The notes beneath the pieces were generated by a model. It saw nothing but the letters and a program-made list of their open reading frames with translations, did not search any database and was not told the DNA's origin. Source: Lysinibacillus sphaericus (lineage in GTDB: Bacteria > Bacillota > Bacilli > Bacillales_A > Planococcaceae). From it: a stretch of 64,000 nucleotides of DNA. How positions within the stretch are numbered: position 1 is the first letter of the stretch; each line of letters starts with the position of its first letter. The stretch lies in contig NZ_SADV01000001.1 of the NCBI RefSeq assembly GCF_006864135.1, forward strand, positions 186,001-250,000, read 5' to 3'. The position numbers were made by a program, and so were the translations under genes. This document shows, piece by piece, positions 23,707-43,166 of the stretch.

Positions 23707-24120
23707 TCATGTTAATAAACAGGATTTTTGTTTAATTTCATCTTCAATTGCCTTCACTATCGTCTCTGCATCATCTGCCGTTATGAGTTCTCCATTGACG
23801 ATGGTGAAAATCCCTAATACCTCGCTGACAGTATACTCTTTTACCAATCTAATTCTGCACGAGAAAATATTAATGGGTATGAAACAAAACAAAGTTCTCA
23901 AAGTCATCAGAGTAATCTATCCTTCTATCTTTTGCCTCAACAATGTGTTAGAATCATCACCCTCATTTTCGACGGAATATACCTATTGCTATCGAAAAAA
24001 AACGATATAAAATCTCTTTTTCCTGGAACATCGTCAGATACAATTTCATTAATCTCAGAAGTCAATATTCCCTTCCAAGAATTCTCAAACAAAATATCTA
24101 TTAATGTTACCTTTTGAATT
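23707..24120 (-). pseudogene. Decayed minus-strand gene, unrecognised
   Basis: The minus strand carries consecutive protein-like stretches in shifting frames: IQKVTLIDILFENSWKGIL, then SEINEIVSDDVPGKRDFISF, then NEGDDSNTLLRQKIEG, and finally EYTVSEVLGIFTIVNGELIT with TADDAETIVKAIEDEIKQKS to a stop at 23707. At least two frameshifts and one stop are needed to join them. No family is recognised. 24121-24510 holds nothing else I can support. Confidence 0.4.
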
Positions 24121-24528
24121 TTTATTTATGTCTACTACCCCTTGTTATTTCAAATTTTGTATTCAACTACATTGTGTTAAGAAAACACCTAGCGCAAAGT
24201 TAGGACAAGGAAGTAGTACTACATATTTCACGGATTTCTTAGCAATTATTTGTAACCTGGTAAGAGTTCATACTACGTTCATCTAATTTAGGAAAATCAA
24301 TATATTCTCATAGATTAGAAATTGATGAGTTTTAGAGCAAAAGTATTGTGTCCATTTTAAAGGAGCTTTTGATGTAAAAATCGAAATTTTGTGATAAATT
24401 AGACACGACATAGTAGGATGAAAACTTTTAAGGAATCGTTATTGTTCTGTAGAGTTTTCCTTCCTTTTGGAGATAGTAGATAAGACTAGTTAATGAGTCA
24501 ATAAAATTGAAAGGAGCCTTATTCATAT

Positions 24529-24891
24529 TTGAAAACTCAACTAAAAATGAAAAAAAAATTAGTTATTTCTATGCTTTTAATTACAGGTCTTGTTACCTGC
24601 ATTATTGGTTGTTCAGAACATACAACCAATAATGCAGAATCAACTATGGAAGGAATTGTAGCGAAAATAAAGGATAATCAGATATTAGTAGTAAAAGGCG
24701 TGACAAAAGAGGAAATTAAAGGTTTATCTGAAGAAGAAACGATAAAGAAAGCTCAAAGTGCGGCTTATTTTGAATTAAAACGAGAAGTAAAAAATATGAA
24801 AGTCGGTAGTAAGGTAAAAGTTTGGATTGAGAGCATAGACACTTCGAATCTAGCTTATGGAATTAGTAGTAAAGTAGAAGTTATAAATTGA
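24529..24891 (+). CDS. Small lipoprotein, DUF3221 (YobA-like)
   Basis: 120 residues. A signal peptide with a lipobox at IIGC (Cys about residue 28) is followed by TMEGIVAKIKDNQILVV... KVGSKVKVWIESIDTS, the small beta-barrel-like DUF3221 fold also found in B. subtilis YobA. Function unknown. Start TTG 24529 has AAGGAG 12 nt upstream; ATG 24547 would keep a good signal peptide but is too far from the ribosome site. Single gene, followed by two terminators. Confidence 0.75.
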   Translation: MKTQLKMKKKLVISMLLITGLVTCIIGCSEHTTNNAESTMEGIVAKIKDNQILVVKGVTKEEIKGLSEEETIKKAQSAAYFELKREVKNMKVGSKVKVWIESIDTSNLAYGISSKVEVIN

Positions 24892-24892
24892 A

Positions 24893-24943
24893 AAAGTAAA
24901 AGCACCCTTTAAAACCTAAGCAGGGTTAAAGTGCTTTTACTTT
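24893..24943 (+). terminator. Terminator of the DUF3221 lipoprotein gene
   Basis: AAAGTAAAAGCAC pairs with GTGCTTTTACTTT, with further inner pairing. Confidence 0.8.
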
Positions 24944-24981
24944 CGTCTTGCCAATGGCTCTTGAAGCGTTTGTTTGTTACT

Positions 24982-25016
24982 TGACCGTATGGTGTTACAG
25001 CACTATACGGTCTTTT
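24982..25016 (+). terminator. Second hairpin terminator
   Basis: GACCGTAT and ATACGGTC enclose 14 nt, followed by TTTTTCTT. No gene of its own precedes it, so it may be a leftover. Confidence 0.7.
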
Positions 25017-25154
25017 TCTTACCCCTATTATAACACATCACTTTTATTTTCAAGAATTTATACCCAAAAAGTATCGCTGATAGAACCACGAACATCGATG
25101 ATTAAAGTGGAAGAATGGCTTATTGCCAAGATGCACTAAACTGCTTGGCTACTT

Positions 25155-26042
25155 CTATTTCAAATCCCTTTTTACACACACTAAAAACTCAATCATGCCT
25201 TCTTCTATTTTGGCTGTTGCACTTCCACCTAATTTTTCTGCTAGCAGCCTGACAATAGATAACCCTAGTCCCGTGTTTTTACGTCTGGAATTGTCTGTTG
25301 TATAAAATCGATCAAAGAGCTGGTTAGGATTTAGTTGACTATTTTCATCAATCGGATTTTGAAAACAGATATATGCATGTTCTTCTTCTAACCACAGCTT
25401 GATCGTTACATCCCCTTGCGCATGCATGATACTATTTCGTACTAAGTTTTGTACAATGCGTAAAAGCATTTCTTCATCAGAGTGAATAATGAGCGGCTCA
25501 AAATTTGGTAAGTTGACGGCTATTCCTTTTTGTTCAAATTGTACAAAGGCACCAGCAATCTCTTCAAATACTATGTTTGAAATATTAATACGATCTTTTT
25601 TGGGCTTATCTTCATTACTATGCAAATAGGAATATTCGAAAAATGTTGCTAATAATTGCTCTAGTCTTCCAACATGTTTTTGTGCGATTTCAAGCTTTGC
25701 AAGCTGCTTTTCTGTTAAGGGTTCTTTTAAAAGCATTTGTTGATAGCCCTTTATCGCAGTGAGTGGCGTACGAAAATCATGCGAAATGTTTGAAATCATT
25801 TCCTTATAGTATTTTTCTTCCCGCTTAATATACGACCTTGATTTTTGTGATTCTATTAATATGCGATTTATATTTGCCACTAGTTGATTTATTTCTTTGT
25901 TTAATAGCTCTACGCTAATTGGCTGTGTATATTGCTCATGTAGACGTTGTGACAATTGAATGTTCATCAATTGTAGTTGCCTTTGTATATAAAAAATATA
26001 AAATAGTAATCCTACAATGATTACAATTGCCACAATCCACAT
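25155..26042 (-). CDS. Sensor histidine kinase
   Basis: 295 residues with one N-terminal membrane helix (2-21) and almost no extracytoplasmic part, so the signal is probably sensed in the membrane or through the ABC partner. A linker coiled coil (about 25-85) leads to the H-box SHDFRTPLTAIKGYQQM, N-box QNLVRNSIMHA, and G-box TGLGLSIVRLLAEKLGG. Last gene of an RR-ATPase-permease-HK operon, 14 bp after the permease. Signal unknown; this arrangement is often used for antibiotic or peptide stress. Confidence 0.87.
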   Translation of the reverse strand: MWIVAIVIIVGLLFYIFYIQRQLQLMNIQLSQRLHEQYTQPISVELLNKEINQLVANINRILIESQKSRSYIKREEKYYKEMISNISHDFRTPLTAIKGYQQMLLKEPLTEKQLAKLEIAQKHVGRLEQLLATFFEYSYLHSNEDKPKKDRINISNIVFEEIAGAFVQFEQKGIAVNLPNFEPLIIHSDEEMLLRIVQNLVRNSIMHAQGDVTIKLWLEEEHAYICFQNPIDENSQLNPNQLFDRFYTTDNSRRKNTGLGLSIVRLLAEKLGGSATAKIEEGMIEFLVCVKRDLK

Positions 26043-26056
26043 TCCCTACCATCTCC

Positions 26057-26839
26057 TTACTTGATTTCTGCTTTTCTAAATGTCATGAATGTTACATATA
26101 AAATGACTACTATAAATACGACACAAATGGAGACGGCCGAAATTAAATCACCTTTACTCATGCTTAAATTAATCGCAAGATACTCCGCTGAATAGGGTGT
26201 GAAGGACAATACTTTATCTACCATCTTAAATGAATTCTGAAAACTAGCAACTTGCCCAAAGAACATGGACATCATGTAATACGCAGCTACTACAAGCACC
26301 GATTTTCTGAAGGCAAACGCCAGTAAAATACAAGTCGTTAACTGCGCAAGATAGACTATTGTCATAGTGCTCATTATTGTTACGTAATCGGCAAAGCTGC
26401 CACTAGTAGTCGCCGTTAGAATGCTTAAAAAACCTGCTGCTTTCCCGCCCATACTAATCGTGCTGTCCATGGATAAACCAATTATTGTCACGATGATATA
26501 AGGACTTACAAGAACAATAAGTAAGATCCAAAAAACAATCGCTTTACTGATGACTATTTGGATTCTTGCAAAGCCGCTTATAATCGGATGATGGATATTT
26601 TTTGTATCAAAATCTGAACAAATAAGTGTAGTGGCAAGTACTGCGCCTACTATTGACATCATATTCATATCAGATAGTAAAAAACCAACGTTGCTGATGC
26701 TTTCATTTATTGAGTTATTGCCTATAGCATAAGCAATACTAAACATTGCTGTTGCAGAACATGTTGTAAGAGCCAGTAAGACCCAAAATATTTTGGATTT
26801 AGTTGTTTTATAAAGGTAAGCACGTACTAAATTAAACAT
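26057..26839 (-). CDS. ABC-2 type transporter permease
   Basis: 260 residues, six predicted membrane helices, starting MFNLVRAYLYKTTKSKIFW, the usual start of ABC-2 permeases of the bacitracin/lantibiotic immunity kind. ATG 26839 has GGAGGTGAGCGCC upstream and overlaps the ATPase stop by 8 bp, showing translational coupling. It would form an exporter with the preceding ATPase. Substrate unknown. Confidence 0.85.
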   Translation of the reverse strand: MFNLVRAYLYKTTKSKIFWVLLALTTCSATAMFSIAYAIGNNSINESISNVGFLLSDMNMMSIVGAVLATTLICSDFDTKNIHHPIISGFARIQIVISKAIVFWILLIVLVSPYIIVTIIGLSMDSTISMGGKAAGFLSILTATTSGSFADYVTIMSTMTIVYLAQLTTCILLAFAFRKSVLVVAAYYMMSMFFGQVASFQNSFKMVDKVLSFTPYSAEYLAINLSMSKGDLISAVSICVVFIVVILYVTFMTFRKAEIK

Positions 26840-27755
26840 GGCGCTCACCTCCAATTAACGTAAGGAAGTAGTTCTCTAATGTGTCTCCTTGTAGACTAAA
26901 TTCCGTAAGTGTTACCCCATTTTCAAATAAGGCGGTTGATACGTCCCCAAGATTCTCTAAGAAATCATACAATTTAATTGTTTTATTTGGCATGACTTGA
27001 AAATTTTGTGTTTTAAGAATTGTTTCTAATACATGTGCACATTGTTCGGGAGCTGTACAACCAATGCGAATATAATGTCTACATTCTTCGTCGAGCTGTT
27101 GTTGCGTCATTTGTTTCATAATTTTCCCTTTATGAATAATGATATAATCAGTTGTTGTTTGATAAAGTTCCGGTAAATTATGACTCGAAATTAAAATCGT
27201 CATCTGTCGCTCTTCACAAAGACGTGTTAAAAGCTGACGAATTTCAACAACACCTATAGGATCTAACCCATTCACTGGCTCATCTAAAATCAATAGCTCT
27301 GGATTAGTTAATAACGCAATAGCAATGCCTAAACGTTGTTTCATGCCGAGTGAAAAATGCTTAGCTTTCTTATTGTTTGTACTCGTCAATCCAACCAATT
27401 GCAGTATTTCATCTTCTAGCTCCTCATTCGGAATCCCCCGCATTAAACGATGATATTTAAGGTTTCCTTTTGCGGTCATATCAGGGCTAATCGCTGGTTG
27501 TTCAATCATACTGGCAATCCTTTTTCGTTGCTGCTGTATTTCCTTGTCAGATGATTTCCCAAATAACTCAAATGAACCTTCTGTTTGAAAACTAATCCCT
27601 GAAACAATTTTCATTAAGGTTGTTTTTCCCGCACCGTTTTCACCAATAAGCCCATAAATACGTCCTTCTTTTAATTCGATTGATACGTCGTGAAGTACTG
27701 TATGCTTTTTATATGTTTTCGTTAATTGATTCGTTTTTAATATGGTTTCTCCCAT
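26832..27755 (-). CDS. ABC transporter ATP-binding protein
   Basis: 307 residues from ATG 27755 (GGGAGG 8 nt upstream). Walker A GENGAGKTTLMK, signature FSLGMKQRLGIA, Walker B LLILDEPVNGLDP and the switch His in LISSHNLPELY are intact, so it should hydrolyse ATP. The roughly 90-residue C-terminal extension is typical of BcrA/lantibiotic-immunity-type ATPases. Partner of the permease downstream; regulated with the two-component genes. Confidence 0.92.
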   Translation of the reverse strand: MGETILKTNQLTKTYKKHTVLHDVSIELKEGRIYGLIGENGAGKTTLMKIVSGISFQTEGSFELFGKSSDKEIQQQRKRIASMIEQPAISPDMTAKGNLKYHRLMRGIPNEELEDEILQLVGLTSTNNKKAKHFSLGMKQRLGIAIALLTNPELLILDEPVNGLDPIGVVEIRQLLTRLCEERQMTILISSHNLPELYQTTTDYIIIHKGKIMKQMTQQQLDEECRHYIRIGCTAPEQCAHVLETILKTQNFQVMPNKTIKLYDFLENLGDVSTALFENGVTLTEFSLQGDTLENYFLTLIGGERHV

Positions 27756-27837
27756 ATTAAGCACCTCCCTTTCATATTCATAGATTACTCATGAAAGGTA
27801 TAGATAAAGTAAAGATGACGTATAGATTACGGATGAT

Positions 27838-28509
27838 TTATGGACGTAAACGATAGCCAAGCCCACGAAGCGTCTCGATATAATCTGCTTGTGAATTTTT
27901 TGTCTTCAATTTATGTCGAAGATTACTAATATGAATTTTAATAATATGTTCATCTCCTAAATATTCTTCTTGCCAAATGGATTCGTATAAATTCGCTTTC
28001 GTGAATACTTTTTCTTGATTTGCCATAAACAATTCTAGCAGTAAATATTCCTTTGCAGTTAGTAAGACCTCCTCACCACCCACTGTAACCCGCTTAGCGA
28101 CATCATCCAGCATTATATCCTTGTATTGCAGCTGCTTCATTGGTGTAGCTTTTTTAACACGACGTAATATCGATTCAATACGAGCGAGAACCTCACCAAG
28201 GTCAAAAGGTTTCGTAATATAATCGTCCGCTCCTAAACGAAGCAAATCAATTTTTGTTGACACTAAATCTTTTGCTGAAATCATAACAACAGGTACATCC
28301 GAAATAGCGCGAATTTCTTTTAATAATTCATCACCACTTTTATAGGGAAGCATAATATCAAGAAGCACAATATCAAATTCATTTTGTAGAAATGCTCGAT
28401 GTCCTTCTACTCCATCCATCACACTTGTTACCTGATAATCTGCTTGCTCAAACAATTCTGTTAACATTGCATTTACATCTTCATGATCCTCAACCATTAA
28501 AATTCTCAA
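27838..28509 (-). CDS. OmpR/PhoB-family response regulator
   Basis: 223 residues starting MRILMVEDHEDVNAML. The receiver domain has the phospho-acceptor Asp in IVLLDIMLP, Lys in ITKPFD, and a C-terminal winged helix (TAKEYLLLELFMANQEKVFT ... ISNLRHKL, LRGLGYRL). TTG 28509 fits AAAGGTG 8 nt upstream better than the earlier GTG 28518. First gene of the RR-ABC-HK operon; it probably controls its own transporter. Confidence 0.9.
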   Translation of the reverse strand: MRILMVEDHEDVNAMLTELFEQADYQVTSVMDGVEGHRAFLQNEFDIVLLDIMLPYKSGDELLKEIRAISDVPVVMISAKDLVSTKIDLLRLGADDYITKPFDLGEVLARIESILRRVKKATPMKQLQYKDIMLDDVAKRVTVGGEEVLLTAKEYLLLELFMANQEKVFTKANLYESIWQEEYLGDEHIIKIHISNLRHKLKTKNSQADYIETLRGLGYRLRP

Positions 28510-28530
28510 TACAACCACACCTTTAATAAA

Positions 28531-28620
28531 TTATGACTCGGCATAATTGCGTCCGGAATCGGCTTTGCGCTTAGGCCTGCAAATATTTTTTGGGCGAAAG
28601 CGTAGCGTCAGCAGCAGGAC
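28531..28620 (-). repeat. Partial dispersed repeat (copy E)
   Basis: CTCGGCATAATTGCGTCCGG and AATCGGCTTTG match the left part of the element at 29284-29405, and GGGCGAAAGCGTAGCG matches the GCGAAAGCGAAGCG module. It lies between the response regulator and the 21-bp array. Confidence 0.65.
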
Positions 28621-28629
28621 TCTTTTCCA

Positions 28630-29040
28630 TCCGTCGTCTACTTGGCCTTCCGTCGTTCTGCCCGACCTTTCCGTCGCCTGCTTTTCCATCCGTCGCTCTG
28701 CTCGGGACTTCCGTCGCTTCGCCTTTTCTTTCCGTCGTTCTGCTCGAGCCTTCCGTTGCCTTCTTTCCCATTCATCGCTCTGCTCGGGACTTCCGTCGTT
28801 TCGCCTTTTCTTTCCGTCGTTCTACTCGGGCCTTCCGTCGCTTCGCCTTTTCTTTCCGTCATTCTGCTCGGGACTTCCGTCGCTTCGCCTTTTCTTTCCG
28901 TCGTTCTGCTCGAGCCTTTCGTCGCTTCGCCATTTCCTTCCGTCGTTCTGCTCATGCCTTCCGTCGCTTCGCCTTTTCTTTCCGTCGTTCTGCCCGACCT
29001 TTCCGTCTCTTCTTCTTTTCGATTCGTGACTTCCGCTTGG
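28630..29040. repeat. 21-bp / 42-bp tandem array 2
   Basis: TCCGTCG-like heads occur at 28792, 28813, 28834, 28855, 28876, 28897, 28918, 28939, 28960, 28981 and 29002, all exactly 21 bp apart; earlier heads (28630-28771) show 21- and 19-bp steps. Two alternating tails (TTCTGCTCGGGAC and CTTCGCCTTTTCTT) give a 42-bp higher-order unit. It produces overlapping open frames on both strands with 7- or 14-residue repeats, which I take as by-products. Non-coding, upstream of the RR-ABC operon. Confidence 0.85.
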
Positions 29041-29115
29041 AGGCAATACCTTCTTTGCTGAAAAAAAGTTAAAATATCCCTATTAATATTATATGGGAAT
29101 TCATGTTAATAAACA

Positions 29116-29265
29116 TTAAATAATTTTATTAACTATCACCCTATTGTCTAGCTGATGCATATGAACTGTAATACTTGGCTGCGATAAATGAAGTTCTTCT
29201 GCGTCTACTCGAAAATTACAAGATTTAGCGGCAACTACAAAAGACTGTATCCATTTATAATCCAA
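29116..29265 (-). pseudogene. Truncated LysR-family regulator (N-terminal DNA-binding part)
   Basis: With AGAGGTGAGCGT before TTG 29265, the frame reads DYKWIQSFVVAAKSCNFR and then AEELHLSQPSITVHMHQLDN, the start of a LysR helix-turn-helix, but stops after 49 codons (VNKII). The recognition helix is present, but the wing and the whole effector domain are gone. The start signal is intact, so a short peptide might still be made. Confidence 0.7.
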
Positions 29266-29283
29266 ACGCTCACCTCTTTCTAT

Positions 29284-29405
29284 CAATTATGCCTCGGCAT
29301 AATTGCGTCCGGAATCGGCTTTGTGCAAGCACAAAGCCGATTCCAAAACATCCGCCGGAGGCTTTAGCTTCTTTCAGCGGATGTTTGAACACCCGCTGAA
29401 AGATT
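29284..29405 (-). repeat. Dispersed modular repeat (copy D)
   Basis: Begins with the AATTATGCCTCGGCATAATT palindrome, then GCGTCCGGAATCGGCTTTGTG/CACAAAGCCGATTCC arms, ACATCCGCCGGAGGCTTTAG and a TTTCAGCGG/CCGCTGAAA hairpin. Read on the minus strand the blocks are in the same order as copy A (AAAGCCTCCGGCGGATGT, CCGGACGCA, palindrome). Confidence 0.7.
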
Positions 29406-29507
29406 AATCTTTTTAACCAACTTCATTAACTATATTTAATTTACTAAATTATCGAACAATAATAAACTAAAATTAGATCGATTACTTTTAACAAAGGGGA
29501 GAATCGT

Positions 29508-30533
29508 ATGTTAGCTAAATTAAGTAAGCAATTCCGTACTTTTGCCAAAAATGAATGTGAAAATTCAAGTCCACTATATGAACATTTAGCCAATAAGATT
29601 GCCGATGATGATGAAATATTAAAAGTTGCCGCATTTATACCTAAAGGACAACCTGTACCTAATTTATTATTAGCTGGCGTTCAGTATTTACTGTCATCAA
29701 CCAAAGACGAATTAGTTTATTTTTATCCATCCTTAACGACAACACCAAAACCAATAAATGAAGTCTATCCTGTTTTTAAAGCATTCGTATTATCCCATTC
29801 AGATGAATTGAAGATTTTATTTCAAGAAAAACTTGTCCAGACTAATGAGATTCGCCGTTGTACTTACCTTTATCCGATGATGACAGAAATTTATGAAGGC
29901 CATCAAAAACCTTTAGCCTTAATAGAAATCGGGGCAAGTGCAGGACTTCAACTTGGGATGGATCAATATAATTACTGCTACAATCAACAGCTTCATATAA
30001 ACCATTCAAATAGCGCTTTCGTTTTGTCCTCAGAAAATCGGGGAGAACGGCTTCCAGCTTCCATTACAAATGCTCCTGTTGTTTGTAAACGTGTTGGGAT
30101 CGATTTAAATCCTATTGATATTCATAATGAGGAAGAGCTTCGATGGCTCCAAGCTTTAATTTGGCCAGAGCATCAAGAACGTAGACTTTTATTAAATCAA
30201 GCACTCCCTATTTTAAAAGAACTCGATTTAGAACTGATAAAAGGAGATGCTATTAAATTTATAAAAGAAATTAGTAGAGATATTAATCAAGATGCGCTAT
30301 TAGTTGTTTATCATACGCATGTGGCCAATCAAATCCCAATGGAGTTACGCCTTGAACTAATTGAACAATTAAAAGAGATCAGCATGGAACGACCTCTCTA
30401 TCATTGTTATAACAATTTATTTGATATACAACTGCATCAAGATTTTATGGATCAAGGTGAAATAGAATCTATCCGAATAATGGAACGACCTGATGGTCAT
30501 GCTCGATGGTTCAAGTGGTCCAACCAAAAATAA
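29508..30533 (+). CDS. DUF2332 family protein
   Basis: 341 residues matching the DUF2332 layout: an N-terminal helical region (FRTFAKNECENSSPLYEHLA), then a methyltransferase-like core with LIEIGASAGLQLGMDQY resembling a Gly-rich SAM loop, GIDLNPIDI, and VVYHTHVANQIP. Enzymatic function is not established; the core suggests a Rossmann-type fold. GGGG upstream of ATG 29508. Isolated gene preceded by two repeat structures and followed by a hairpin. Confidence 0.8.
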   Translation: MLAKLSKQFRTFAKNECENSSPLYEHLANKIADDDEILKVAAFIPKGQPVPNLLLAGVQYLLSSTKDELVYFYPSLTTTPKPINEVYPVFKAFVLSHSDELKILFQEKLVQTNEIRRCTYLYPMMTEIYEGHQKPLALIEIGASAGLQLGMDQYNYCYNQQLHINHSNSAFVLSSENRGERLPASITNAPVVCKRVGIDLNPIDIHNEEELRWLQALIWPEHQERRLLLNQALPILKELDLELIKGDAIKFIKEISRDINQDALLVVYHTHVANQIPMELRLELIEQLKEISMERPLYHCYNNLFDIQLHQDFMDQGEIESIRIMERPDGHARWFKWSNQK

Positions 30534-30549
30534 AAGTTGCCACGAAAAA

Positions 30550-30585
30550 ACGCTGCATGAGATTTTTCTCTCATGCAACGTCATG
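30550..30585 (+). terminator. Hairpin after the DUF2332 gene
   Basis: CGCTGCATGAGA and TCTCATGCAACG enclose TTTTTC. There is no T-run, so termination strength is uncertain. Confidence 0.5.
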
Positions 30586-30637
30586 TTGATTAAAAACTAT
30601 TAAATCAATGAAATTAAGTTTTCTCGGCAAAACGAGG

Positions 30638-30817
30638 GGTTGATTTCCGCTCCGGCTGGGCGCTTTCCTAGGGGCGTCCGATGAGCCGCTTCGCTGCAGG
30701 GTCTCTGGCCAACACAATGTTGGTCACGAAGGCGTTATCACAGGACGTGATGCTTTTAGCCTTCGTTCCTCTATCGCTGATCCCCAAGGAGTCGCCCAGC
30801 CTCCAATCCAATCAACC
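30638..30817. repeat. 180-bp inverted-repeat intergenic element
   Basis: Ends are GGTTGATT (30638) and AATCAACC (30817); inside them GGCTGGGCGCTTTCC pairs with GGAGTCGCCCAGCC. The centre carries GATGAGCCGCTTCGCTGCAG and TCTGGCC. No coding capacity. The overall design matches abundant intergenic elements I know from Bacillales genomes (TTGATTTCCG... GGGAGTCG... CAATCAACC); the transcript would fold into a long hairpin. Confidence 0.75.
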
Positions 30818-30851
30818 GCTTTATTAAGCAAGTATCTTATAGTATATCACT

Positions 30852-31910
30852 CTATTTTTTTGCAGTATATTTTCTAATTGCTGGTAAAATATCGTTCCCG
30901 ATAATTTCGATATTTTTCATTAATTTATCGAATGGCACACCGCCAAAATCAATTTGTGCCATAAATCGTTGCATGCCATAGAGCTCGTATTGATACAGTA
31001 ATTTTTCAATAATTTGCTCCGTACTTCCGACCATTAAGGCATCTTTTGTATCCGGTGCTTCCGCAAATTGTTGCTTTGGATAACCTGCGCCGCGAATTGC
31101 TTGGAATCCACCATTTAAATGGGGATACATCCCTTGTAGTGCCTCTTCCGTCGTATGTGCGACGTGGAATAGGCTTGTTGTAGCAATCGGTAACTCTTTC
31201 GGATCAAAGCCATTTCTCTCCGCTGCCTCCCTGTAGGCATCAACTGATGGCTTAAAGTTAACAGCGGGACCACCTAATGTCGTTAGCATCATTGGAATGC
31301 CCATATAGCCTGCTTTCATGGCACTTGCAGGTGGACCACCAACAGCTCGCCAAATTGGTAACGACCCATTTTTAGGTTGTGGCAAAATTTGTGCATTGTG
31401 AAGTGGTGCACGAAATTGTCCTTCCCAAGTGATCAGCTCGTTGTCATTTATTTTTTTCAGTAACGCTAATTTTTCTTCAAAAATTTCTTCATAATCCTTT
31501 AAATCGATACCTAGTAATTGATATGCACCAACTCGAGAGCCACGCCCTGCGACTATTTCTGCACGTCCATCTGAAATTAAATCAATCGTTGCAAAATCTT
31601 CATATACGCGTACAGGGTCAGAGACACTAAGGACTGTTGCAGAGCTTGCTAATTTAATTTTTGATGTAGCGTGTGCGATTGCTCCTAAAACAACTGTGTG
31701 TGCCTGTGTCGTAAAGTACGATTGATGACTTTCGCCAACAGCAAAGACATCAATATCCGCTTGTTCTGCAAGCTGACTTGCTTCAATTAGCTCTTGGATT
31801 CGTTGTTGAGCTGAAATACGTTCACCTGTTAATGGATTTGGAATATGATCCCCTAATGAATATAGGCCAAATTCGATGCCTTTCGATTGATCAATACGGT
31901 ATTTATCCAT
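30852..31910 (-). CDS. LLM-class flavin-dependent oxidoreductase
   Basis: 352-residue luciferase-like TIM barrel using reduced FMN or F420-like flavin (FMN expected here). FGLYSLGD, DVFAVGESHQSYF, ASSATVLSVSDPVRVYEDFA, and VGSTEQIIEKLLYQYELYG are family signatures. Start 15 bp after the ring-cleaving dioxygenase, so it is the third gene of the MarR operon. By context it may act on quinones or related aromatics, but the substrate is inferred only. Confidence 0.87.
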   Translation of the reverse strand: MDKYRIDQSKGIEFGLYSLGDHIPNPLTGERISAQQRIQELIEASQLAEQADIDVFAVGESHQSYFTTQAHTVVLGAIAHATSKIKLASSATVLSVSDPVRVYEDFATIDLISDGRAEIVAGRGSRVGAYQLLGIDLKDYEEIFEEKLALLKKINDNELITWEGQFRAPLHNAQILPQPKNGSLPIWRAVGGPPASAMKAGYMGIPMMLTTLGGPAVNFKPSVDAYREAAERNGFDPKELPIATTSLFHVAHTTEEALQGMYPHLNGGFQAIRGAGYPKQQFAEAPDTKDALMVGSTEQIIEKLLYQYELYGMQRFMAQIDFGGVPFDKLMKNIEIIGNDILPAIRKYTAKK

Positions 31911-31925
31911 GATGAATATCTCTCC

Positions 31926-32867
31926 TTAATCTAGCGGCTCTAAAATAGCTTCGATTTCTGCACGTCTTTCTTCTAAAAATGGTGGAAGATCAAGTTCTTT
32001 GCCAAGATCCTCTATTGCCGAATCAACTGTAAATCCTGGGCCATCTGTTGCCATTTCAAATAAAATGCCATTACGATCTCTAAAATAAAGACTTTGGAAA
32101 TAATAACGATCCACAATGCCAGTACTATCAAAGCCCTGCTCCTTAATTTTAAGATCCCACTGTTGTAATTCCTCCACTGTTCCAACACGTAGTGCAAGAT
32201 GGTGAATACTACCACGTCCAGGTTTCTCACTTGGCCCTTCTAATTCTTGAACAACGATTTCTCCAAGCACTTCACCAGGAATCGATTGCAATACTGCTTC
32301 TTTTTCACTTTCTGTTACAACTGTGTAATTAAATAGCTCTTTTAATACACTTACTGTCCGTTGCAAGTAACGAACTGTCATTTCAACTGTACCCATCCCT
32401 AAAATACGATGTTCTGCAGGGATATCAGAGCCGTCCCATGGTTGCCAATGAGCTGGTGTTTCATGACCATGATTGTTTAACAGCACCATTCTTAACCCTT
32501 CATGATCCTCAAAAAACAATGCATCTTTCCCTGCATAAGTTGTTATTTCACTATGCTCAATCTTTAACTGTTGAAAACGGTTTTTCCAAAATTGCAGACT
32601 GTCATAGCTTGGCACTAGTAATCCAATACGTGTAATGGCATTTGTTCCGCGCACTGTCCGACCTGCTACAGGCATTTCAAAAAATGTTAATTCTGTACCT
32701 GGTGCTCCAGTCAAGTCTCCATAAAACAAGTGATACATGGAAGGCGAATCTTGGTTTACTGATTTCTTTACACGACGTAAGCCGAGAAGTTTTGTGTAAA
32801 AATCATTATTACGTTTCCCGTTTTTTGTTAGCATTGATATATGATGATGTCCACTTAATTTGTTCAT
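31926..32867 (-). CDS. Ring-cleaving dioxygenase, MhqO/MhqE-like (tandem VOC domains)
   Basis: 313 residues with two glyoxalase/VOC repeats (about 1-140 and 150-290). The N-terminus LSGHHHISMLTKNGKRNNDF and metal-site regions IHHLALRV and LFEMATDGPGF match the MhqO/YodE group, which in B. subtilis detoxifies hydroquinones and catechol-type electrophiles and is repressed by MhqR. Strong ribosome site AAGGAGGAAACATTC. Middle gene of marR-dioxygenase-LLM operon. Confidence 0.87.
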   Translation of the reverse strand: MNKLSGHHHISMLTKNGKRNNDFYTKLLGLRRVKKSVNQDSPSMYHLFYGDLTGAPGTELTFFEMPVAGRTVRGTNAITRIGLLVPSYDSLQFWKNRFQQLKIEHSEITTYAGKDALFFEDHEGLRMVLLNNHGHETPAHWQPWDGSDIPAEHRILGMGTVEMTVRYLQRTVSVLKELFNYTVVTESEKEAVLQSIPGEVLGEIVVQELEGPSEKPGRGSIHHLALRVGTVEELQQWDLKIKEQGFDSTGIVDRYYFQSLYFRDRNGILFEMATDGPGFTVDSAIEDLGKELDLPPFLEERRAEIEAILEPLD

Positions 32868-32919
32868 GAATGTTTCCTCCTTGTTTTCGCTTGACTAAGC
32901 AAGTGATTGTGTAAAAAAA

Positions 32920-33363
32920 TCACGCTGGTGGTAATTTTTTATCACGACTATGCTTCTCTATTTTCGACATTAGTGTATTTAAAGTTTTCAGTTCTTCTTC
33001 TGTTAATACTTCTTCAAAAAATGAAGATTGAAATTGTAGCTGACTTGGTGTTGCCATATCAATCATCTGCTCGCCTTTTGCTGTTAGTGAGATTGTTTTA
33101 GTCTTCCAATTTTGCTTCCGTTCAATAAGTCCATCTTTTTCAAGACGAGCAAGCATCCTAGACATACCACCTTGCGTCACTATCACTTTCTCTGCTAATT
33201 GGGATTGCGTTAACGGTGCATATGTCTTAATTTGGATTAGGACATCAAATTGTGCAGTCGTTAAACCAAAGCGCTTTAAAAACTCATTGGATAGCTGATT
33301 ACTTTGATTTGTAAAGCGCATCATCCGAATCCACGTCACTGTCCCGAGCGTATGTTTTTGCAT
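32920..33363 (-). CDS. MarR-family regulator
   Basis: 147 residues: dimerisation helices flank a winged helix ([46 protein letters not shown]). GGGGGAGGAAGCG precedes ATG 33363. It heads an operon with a quinone-type dioxygenase and an LLM oxidoreductase and lies 58 bp below a perfect palindrome close to the MhqR operator, so it is probably an autorepressor released by quinones. There are no Cys residues, so direct thiol sensing, as in YodB/CatR, is unlikely; ligand-type sensing as in MhqR is more plausible. Confidence 0.87.
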
Positions 33364-33416
33364 CGCTTCCTCCCCCTCTCATTGTCACTTTACCACGCAA
33401 GTGATGTACAAGCAAG

Positions 33417-33444
33417 AAAAATATCTTGAATTCAAGATATTTTT
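33417..33444. promoter_or_regulatory. Perfect palindrome resembling the MhqR operator
   Basis: ATATCTTGAATTCAAGATAT (33421-33440) is a perfect 20-bp palindrome flanked by A4/T4. It differs by one position per half from the TATCTCGAATTCGAGATA-type MhqR box of B. subtilis. A candidate promoter for marR (TTGCTT, 17 bp, TAAAGT) begins just below it. It may also help to terminate cdaS transcription from the other side. Confidence 0.7.
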
Positions 33445-33460
33445 CAGTGTGAAGCTCACA

Positions 33461-34081
33461 CTATATAATGCCATGCGTCGTAATCGGATATAAGTTTCCT
33501 TTAAAGGCAAAGGAAATTCTCCCTGTTTCTTCAGACACTATCATGACAAGCGCATCACTTACTTCACTTAACCCTAATGCTGCTCGATGCCTTGTGCCTA
33601 ATTTCTTTTCCCCCATATATCTCTCTGACAGTGGCAGTACATTTGCTGCTGATTTAATTAGATTTTGGCTTATTAAAACGGCGCCATCATGAAGTGGATT
33701 TCCAGGGAAAAAAATAGATTCTAATAAGGAATGCGTTACTTCTGCACCAATATGAATACCAGGCTGTATAATAGATGCTACTGAATCCTCCCGTTCAATA
33801 ACAATTAATCCGCCGTGTCTTCTTTTAGACATATTTTGTACGCTATGTGAAAGCTCAGGATATTTTTCAGTAAACGGCGAAAGATAGCAATTCAAATAAA
33901 ACGTAGCAGCCTTCATTTCAATCGTTACAAATTTCTCTTTTATTTTTTCAAAATTCCCAAGAAGACAGTTTGTATCCGTATCCATAGCTTCTACACTTTG
34001 CTGTAATGAATGTATGACCTGCAAAAGCTCTTCCTTTAATGTTTGTTTCATTGGTGAAAAATCGCAATTTGTTGGATCCAT
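33461..34081 (-). CDS. cdaS: Sporulation-type diadenylate cyclase
   Basis: Makes c-di-AMP from two ATP. From ATG 34081 (GGGGTG 6 nt upstream) the product has 206 residues, against 207 in B. subtilis CdaS. An autoinhibitory two-helix N-terminal region (about 1-65) precedes the DAC domain with DGA in NPLHDGAVLI and RHR in LGTRHRAALGLSE. No membrane helices, unlike CdaA; no DNA-binding domain, unlike DisA. It should act in the forespore or during germination. Monocistronic. Confidence 0.9.
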   Translation of the reverse strand: MDPTNCDFSPMKQTLKEELLQVIHSLQQSVEAMDTDTNCLLGNFEKIKEKFVTIEMKAATFYLNCYLSPFTEKYPELSHSVQNMSKRRHGGLIVIEREDSVASIIQPGIHIGAEVTHSLLESIFFPGNPLHDGAVLISQNLIKSAANVLPLSERYMGEKKLGTRHRAALGLSEVSDALVMIVSEETGRISFAFKGNLYPITTHGII

Positions 34082-43080: not shown

Positions 43081-43166
43081 AAAACATTTGTTGCTGGCGC
43101 TTCGCTTTCGCACAGTTAAAACATTTGTTGCTGGCGCTTCGCTTTCGCACAGTTAAAACATTCGCT
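43081..43166. repeat. Exact 37-bp tandem duplication containing the dispersed-repeat module
   Basis: Units 43081-43117 and 43118-43154 are identical, starting AAAACATTTGTTGCTGGCGC and ending GCTTTCGCACAGTT; a third partial unit (AAAACATTCGCTG) follows. Each holds CGCTTCGCTTTCGC, the complement of the GCGAAAGCGAAGCG module seen elsewhere in the window. Confidence 0.85.

Follow-up and report, generated by a model that had tools for sequence, protein, structure and literature searches.

Is the long array of short tandem repeats at this locus junk, or does it have a function? It lies between an operon for a response regulator, an ABC transporter and a histidine kinase on one side and a truncated lysR gene on the other. 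Judged from the DNA letters, the family to which it belongs looks like a chromosome signal, with members that stand mostly behind genes and nearly always along the direction of replication. The features of the locus are given below in coordinates of the window (the whole 64-kb stretch of DNA that was analysed).

25155..26042, minus strand: histidine kinase gene (HisKA, HATPase_c; Pfam)
26057..26854, minus strand: gene of a 265-residue protein without Pfam match, probably a permease from its context
26832..27764, minus strand: ABC transporter ATPase gene (Pfam)
27838..28518, minus strand: response regulator gene (Response_reg, Trans_reg_C; Pfam), the first gene behind the array
28525..29067, minus strand: 543-bp insertion that holds the array (comparison with four relatives)
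28540..28567, plus strand: first exact 28-bp copy of a second dispersed repeat, GGCATAATTGCGTCCGGAATCGGCTTTG, inside the insertion
28629..29030, minus strand in family orientation (GACGGAWAGAA strand): repeat array (TRF, autocorrelation, head positions)
29068..29138, minus strand: block conserved upstream of the response regulator gene in four relatives, with a TATAAT-like stretch (local alignment)
29143..29268, minus strand: lysR remnant of 42 residues (Pfam HTH_1, below cut-off)
29296..29323, plus strand: second exact 28-bp copy of GGCATAATTGCGTCCGGAATCGGCTTTG, on the far side of the lysR remnant

The plus strand of the array carries heads of the TCCGTCG type; the family orientation, GACGGAWAGAA, is the minus strand. 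The heads are found at 28792, 28813, 28834, 28855, 28876, 28897, 28918, 28939, 28960, 28981 and 29002. As the original prediction had it, all eleven are exactly 21 bp apart, three of them being degenerate (TCCGTCA at 28855, TTCGTCG at 28918 and TCCGTCT at 29002). Tails of the CTGCTCGGGCC type alternate with tails of the CTTCGCCTTTTCT type, so that the true period of the array is 42 bp. This superstructure, also predicted, is recovered by TRF (period 42, 9.0 copies, score 459; a second call has period 84 and score 508). Like TRF, autocorrelation places the array far above chance: over 28629-29030 it is 0.47, 0.68 and 0.57 at lags 21, 42 and 84, the maximum over lags 10-59 being 0.431 in 300 dinucleotide shuffles of the array. 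No second 400-bp segment of the whole 64 kb exceeds 0.40 over lags 15-59. The predicted 19-bp steps of the 5' part correspond to three units starting at 28629, 28669 and 28751, and Pfam matches agree with the neighbours that had been named. For the lysR remnant, HTH_1 scores 25.3 bits, slightly under the cut-off of 26.6; in three relatives a lysR-like reading is open for 285-304 codons where the window has the short remnant. A CRISPR array, already set aside in the prediction, is rejected here too: the 21-bp units follow each other head to tail, with five free positions only and no unique spacers.

How did the array come to lie there? The conserved upstream block ends 17 nt from the response regulator codons in four relatives, versus 560 nt in the window, and all four closest orthologues (response regulator 93-96% identical) lack an array upstream of the gene. 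Local alignment of the block scores 57-87, compared with a maximum of 35-41 for shuffled queries, and the block is probably the promoter of the operon. Our consensus promoter scan did not list it; at this locus that scan called promoter-like and terminator-like sites at about the shuffle rate. Since the 543-bp insertion separates the block from the response regulator gene, the array is placed in the predicted 5' leader of the operon, whose expression may thereby change. A search of the genome contigs with the response regulator protein found distant response regulators only. The window copy is atypical of its family: it lies in an operon leader and has no terminator in front of it. The comparison with relatives identifies it as a young member of the family, which would have arrived by recent ectopic insertion. 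The genome is a draft; in G001 and G015 the response regulator gene lies on the minus strand of the left arm and, if synteny with these two holds, the orientation of the window array would fit the leading strand.

Other repeats were noticed on the way. The second dispersed repeat resembles CAATTATGCCTCGGCATAATTGCGTCCGGAATCGGCTTTG and ends in a palindrome; its two exact 28-mers flank the array and the lysR remnant. Loci of G000, G001, G007 and G015 carry its 15-bp core as well, and the repeat was seen at loci L013, L164, L170, L184, L190, L213, L221 and L246. At 43081-43162 of the window, a 37-bp unit, AAAACATTTGTTGCTGGCGCTTCGCTTTCGCACAGTT, stands in 2.2 perfect tandem copies; GCTTCGCT-rich stretches similar to it adjoin the L013 array. 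Units of about 30 bp make up a further tandem repeat, TTAGCGGCG(T/G)..., beside the short array of L023 (G000:C71:193700-196900). Rfam models run over 24000-34000 gave no match above the gathering score in the array. The sole match in that range, outside the array, is Bacillaceae-1 sRNA (RF01690) at 30709-30775 on the minus strand, with 73.3 bits, behind a DUF2332 gene.

The window array is one of many. Profiles taken one unit away from the seed gave the same unit in five genomes, AARYGAnGGAWAGAAnnnnnA on the strand opposite to the TCCGTCG heads. The commonest step is 21 bp, with 19 bp second in four of the five. Arrays of 2-87 units occupy dozens of sites per genome, and this single unit recurring at many intergenic places makes them a dispersed intergenic direct-repeat family. 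The window's own genome has at least 32 matches at at least 23 places, at least 22 of which are elsewhere than in the window; 21 of the 23 places were examined. Array lists, here and below, are samples among the matches listed from BLAST or pattern searches, and the rule used found no array in three fetched regions, L195, L223 and L266. Window-type arrays matched 8 of 31 other genomes of the genus, one of them weakly, and one genome of another family, again weakly. Two arrays queried against plasmids and phages gave no match at E 1e-5. In titles and abstract openings from one open-access library we found no description of the family.

All 32 genomes of the genus contain a less strict two-unit motif, GGAWAGA-N11..14-GGAWAGA, in numbers from 1-2 copies in six species to 768 in G007. 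Absence of excess 21-bp periodicity in the genus, which the original prediction named as evidence against itself, is therefore not what is seen. The reversed control motif occurs 0-3 times in 29 genomes; it occurs 9, 10 and 20 times in G003, G025 and G031, so that these three may also have tandem arrays of comparable composition that are unrelated to the family. The motif is rare among 135 genomes of the family outside the genus: most have 0-3 copies, six have 5-8, and the highest counts, 13 in G086 and 29 in G124, come from a single genus (g38). In a whiA-crh tree covering 30 species (G013 and G015 left off), the seven array-rich relatives, including the window's species, form one clade (100/99). 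Five of the six array-poor species (G017, G020, G022, G023 and G029) form another (100/100), and the sixth, G010, sits on a long branch. Since six of the 32 genomes have only 1-2 motif copies, the element is dispensable. Genome G026, with 408 two-unit matches mostly on one strand of its draft contigs, branches apart from the amplified clade, and its richness in arrays is an independent amplification.

Where do the arrays lie? In family orientation, the upstream gene is co-oriented with 42 of 43 listed arrays in G007, 31 of 34 in G015 and 20 of 22 in G000, and also in the low-copy G001 (21/26) and G002 (10/13). Among the leading-oriented arrays of G001, G007 and G015 this holds for 85 of 93; at the same loci, intergenic regions without an array have it in 143 of 227 cases (p 7e-8; p-values assume independent sites, and merged counts are given beside them below). 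Divergent promoter regions are avoided. A terminator-like hairpin precedes 84 of 109 arrays standing within 200 bp behind a co-oriented gene, versus 120 of 311 control gene ends; the controls comprise ends with a gap of at least 60 bp, 301 tighter ends being left out. The median distance from the T-run to the first unit is 26 bp. Terminators were called by a crude hairpin-plus-T rule and genes by a codon-score ORF finder.

The orientation of the arrays was compared with replication in G001, G007 and G015. These are complete chromosomes with a dnaA motif at the contig start and GC-skew switches at 2.715-2.75, 2.765-2.80 and 2.815-2.85 Mb, respectively. The purine-rich strand is the leading strand at 93 of the 97 sites listed in them, or at 65 of 68 once orthologous sites are merged. 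It is so too between convergent genes (22:2, merged 19:1), where gene direction by itself predicts no preference, and for short arrays (25 of 26 sites in G001, with 2-7 cores). The upstream gene is on the lagging strand for only 3 of 88 arrays behind a co-oriented gene, 20% of called genes being lagging. There are four exceptions: L160 and L198, which are one orthologous site in two species, L214, and L246. The last, counted as an exception with the G001 boundary at 2.715-2.75 Mb, consists of two cores 18 bp apart and may be a chance occurrence.

Four further genomes are left out of the 97-site count. In the outgroup G002, where calls come from local skew and gene direction and the terminus is not located, 10 of 13 arrays agree with the local GC skew, L263 and L264 look lagging and L265 is ambiguous. 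The two-unit matches of G005, G011 and G019 (31, 48 and 61) fall in arcs of a single orientation, origin and terminus not being located. One plus-oriented site of G005, at 3.38 Mb, lies past the chromosome midpoint; it may lie past the terminus and is a possible exception. With the lagging-looking arrays of G002 and the exceptions above, the orientation rule is strong but not absolute. Where there is no array, the leading strand of intergenic DNA is only weakly skewed (A 0.334, T 0.314, G 0.194, C 0.158), so that drift in composition alone does not give the orientation of the arrays.

Are the sites old? Between crh and clpP, a region fetched from 30 species, 7 of the 16 species shown have arrays that start behind the crh terminator, with motif counts of 8-47 (the array is cut off by the contig end in G018 and runs into masked sequence in G025). 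A few proto-units stand at this place in the sister species G001 and G005, and the remaining seven species lack an array. Among listed sites, G007 shares 18 with G015, 13 with G000, 8 with G001 and 4 with G002, and one site, behind a gene for a 416-residue protein, is common to all five genomes. Sites are kept between deeply separated species with only 2-5 units. Orthologous arrays share a fraction of 0.031 of their exact 21-mers (30 pairs), compared with 0.006 for different loci of one genome (1071 pairs); for unrelated loci of two genomes the value is 0.005. Loci therefore evolve separately, and genome-wide homogenisation of the units is ruled out by the same figures. These comparisons indicate that the sites are old and often shared between species and that the units turn over locus by locus.

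Within the unit, the conserved positions and the five free positions are identical across the five genomes. Neighbouring units of G001 mismatch at 72-77% at the five free positions, that is, at random, and at 79% at the n position. The mismatch is 23-28% at the two A's before the core and 40-61% at the other flanking positions. Neither the AA nor the free positions were used for seeding, and we read the retention of the AA beside random free positions as a sign of sequence-specific constraint. Between G001 and G005, for which 9 of 26 sites could be aligned, substitutions number 18/188 in the core, 34/135 at free positions, 28/153 in AARYGA and 279/2531 in other intergenic DNA; the core rate is lowered because cores were chosen intact in G001.

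Because the polarity of the arrays tracks the fork even where gene direction is free, we favour, tentatively, the view that the family acts as a polar boundary where leading-strand transcription units end, read by a putative DNA-binding protein. A protein is favoured since the same conserved and free positions recur at loci between which units are not exchanged. In each unit, the conserved part would be the site of this putative sequence-specific protein and, being repeated about every two helical turns, the sites would face one side of the DNA. Such a boundary could, for example, stop machinery moving head-on to the fork, or ease the fork past the gene end. Slippage would let the unit number drift and so account for the strong amplification seen in some lineages. 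Several points tell against this reading. The analysis linked no trans-acting gene to the arrays, and G002 has two arrays that look lagging. Unit number varies hugely, as in a satellite, and 19-bp steps break exact helical phasing. The element is nearly absent from five related species, and the window copy is not behind a terminator. The fuller proposition, a replication-polar boundary with its own dedicated protein, placed behind leading-strand terminators genus-wide, governing how transcription and the fork meet, and amplified in some lineages to satellite-like arrays of up to 87 units with higher-order repeats of their own, is on the doubtful side.

The original prediction had offered a protein-binding array and a selfish mini-satellite among its options; the first survives as our preferred reading and the second as its strongest rival. 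A selfish or neutral satellite would be copied rarely to ectopic places, grow by slippage and be kept only where place and orientation are harmless. Less than probable as we judge it, this explanation still has to be taken seriously. The orientation filter could act, for instance, through R-loops that purine-rich transcripts would otherwise form head-on to replication; the sense strand is rich in A (0.39-0.41) and G (0.29-0.34). Large swings of copy number between species with clade-wide amplification, near-absence in the five related species, avoidance of divergent promoter regions, as expected of harmless repeats, and a window copy freshly inserted at an unusual place all agree with it. Place and orientation filtering, however, does not readily account for identical conserved and free positions at loci without unit exchange, nor for sites kept across deeply separated species with 2-5 units, and the weak skew of array-free DNA makes drift insufficient for the orientation. 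We retain filtered satellite DNA as a serious but not a probable alternative to the polar boundary.

An element acting at the RNA level is improbable. Pyrimidine-rich antisense transcripts, running head-on to replication, would load Rho or another RNA-binding factor and end before the leading-strand gene. The antisense strand has the composition for this, with C at 0.29-0.34 and G at 0.10-0.17. RNA was folded for two arrays: the antisense strand folds more weakly than shuffles (z +2.0 and +3.3), and neither strand folds better than shuffles. Rho is encoded in 32 of 32 genomes of the genus, a presence that does not discriminate, as it is equally there where arrays are nearly absent. Moreover, the downstream gene is co-oriented for most listed arrays (28/43, 23/34 and 16/22), where no antisense transcript is obvious, and Rho is not known to need a strict 15-bp core.

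Far less likely still is a sequence that guides a translocase or repair enzyme along the chromosome, in the manner of KOPS/SRS or Chi. Leading-strand polarity would suit it, and AGCGG, which we take to be the B. subtilis Chi, is somewhat denser on the sense strand of the arrays, with 57 copies in 55,098 bp, than outside (0.588 per kb per strand). However, the octamers that we take to be E. coli KOPS or B. subtilis SRS, a kind of sequence recognised by the gamma domain of an FtsK/SpoIIIE translocase, are absent from the same 55,098 bp, and a count by thirds between origin and terminus gives an even distribution of array loci (14/13/10 and 12/11/9), so that arrays of KOPS/SRS are rejected. Single GGATAGA copies outside arrays also have no extra strand bias (leading 61/92, versus 0.66 for 60 permuted heptamers). 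Arrays of DnaA boxes, with box letters likewise as we assume them, were considered and rejected. Finally, a coding repeat of DGKKRRS- or FRRFAFS-type peptides, which the original prediction already doubted, is barely credible: frames are open on both strands in the window and, among 80 arrays with at least 8 units, a frame that stays open for 90% of the length or more is found on the antisense strand in 31 and on the sense strand in 10, but 69 of the 80 contain a core-to-core step that is not a multiple of 3, conservation has no codon pattern and orthologous sites shrink to 2-3 units.

Returning to the polar boundary, how does the family compare with known systems? The BOX elements of S. pneumoniae contain tandem boxB subunits and probably differ from the arrays in sequence and structure. 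Both are small interspersed repeats (PMC3049150). The nearest published kind among those compared is the staphylococcal STAR element. As described in PMC3532100, STAR elements are likewise direct repeats dispersed over intergenic DNA; they have a conserved core, vary in copy number, have sequences specific to their loci and lack a known function. Their 14-bp core is T(G/A/T)TGTTG(G/T)GGCCC(C/A), and cores are separated by 40 bp or more; that study reports no STAR neighbourhood common to different species, and its text does not contain the word 'orientation' (PMC3532100). The arrays differ in core and in spacing (19-21 bp), share many sites between species and are oriented with replication, and they are thus not STAR elements. 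With KOPS, SRS and AIMS they have in common a leading-strand preference, 93 of 97 listed sites in our case, compared with the 82% quoted for SRS of B. subtilis in PMC4744071. AIMS are octamers defined, in PMC5993296, by rising abundance toward the terminus; no such rise is found for our sites, which are intergenic tandem arrays of different sequence, evenly spread (PMC4744071, PMC5993296). Prokaryotic satellites are also intergenic tandem repeats that form families within a genus, but the account of them in the relevant portion of PMC6749651 includes no polarity or post-terminator rule, no strand and no Lysinibacillus.

A genus-wide family, its orientation with replication, its place behind terminators, its orthologous sites and the recent, atypical insertion in the window all go beyond the original prediction. 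Firmicutes have long been known to carry intergenic direct repeats, such as STAR, that have no assigned function. In three chromosomes the orientation of the present family follows the fork almost without exception, also in arrays of 2-7 units and between convergent genes. This polarity makes the junk-or-function question for intergenic repeats directly testable, and the family would offer a bacterial model for satellite amplification and higher-order repeats.
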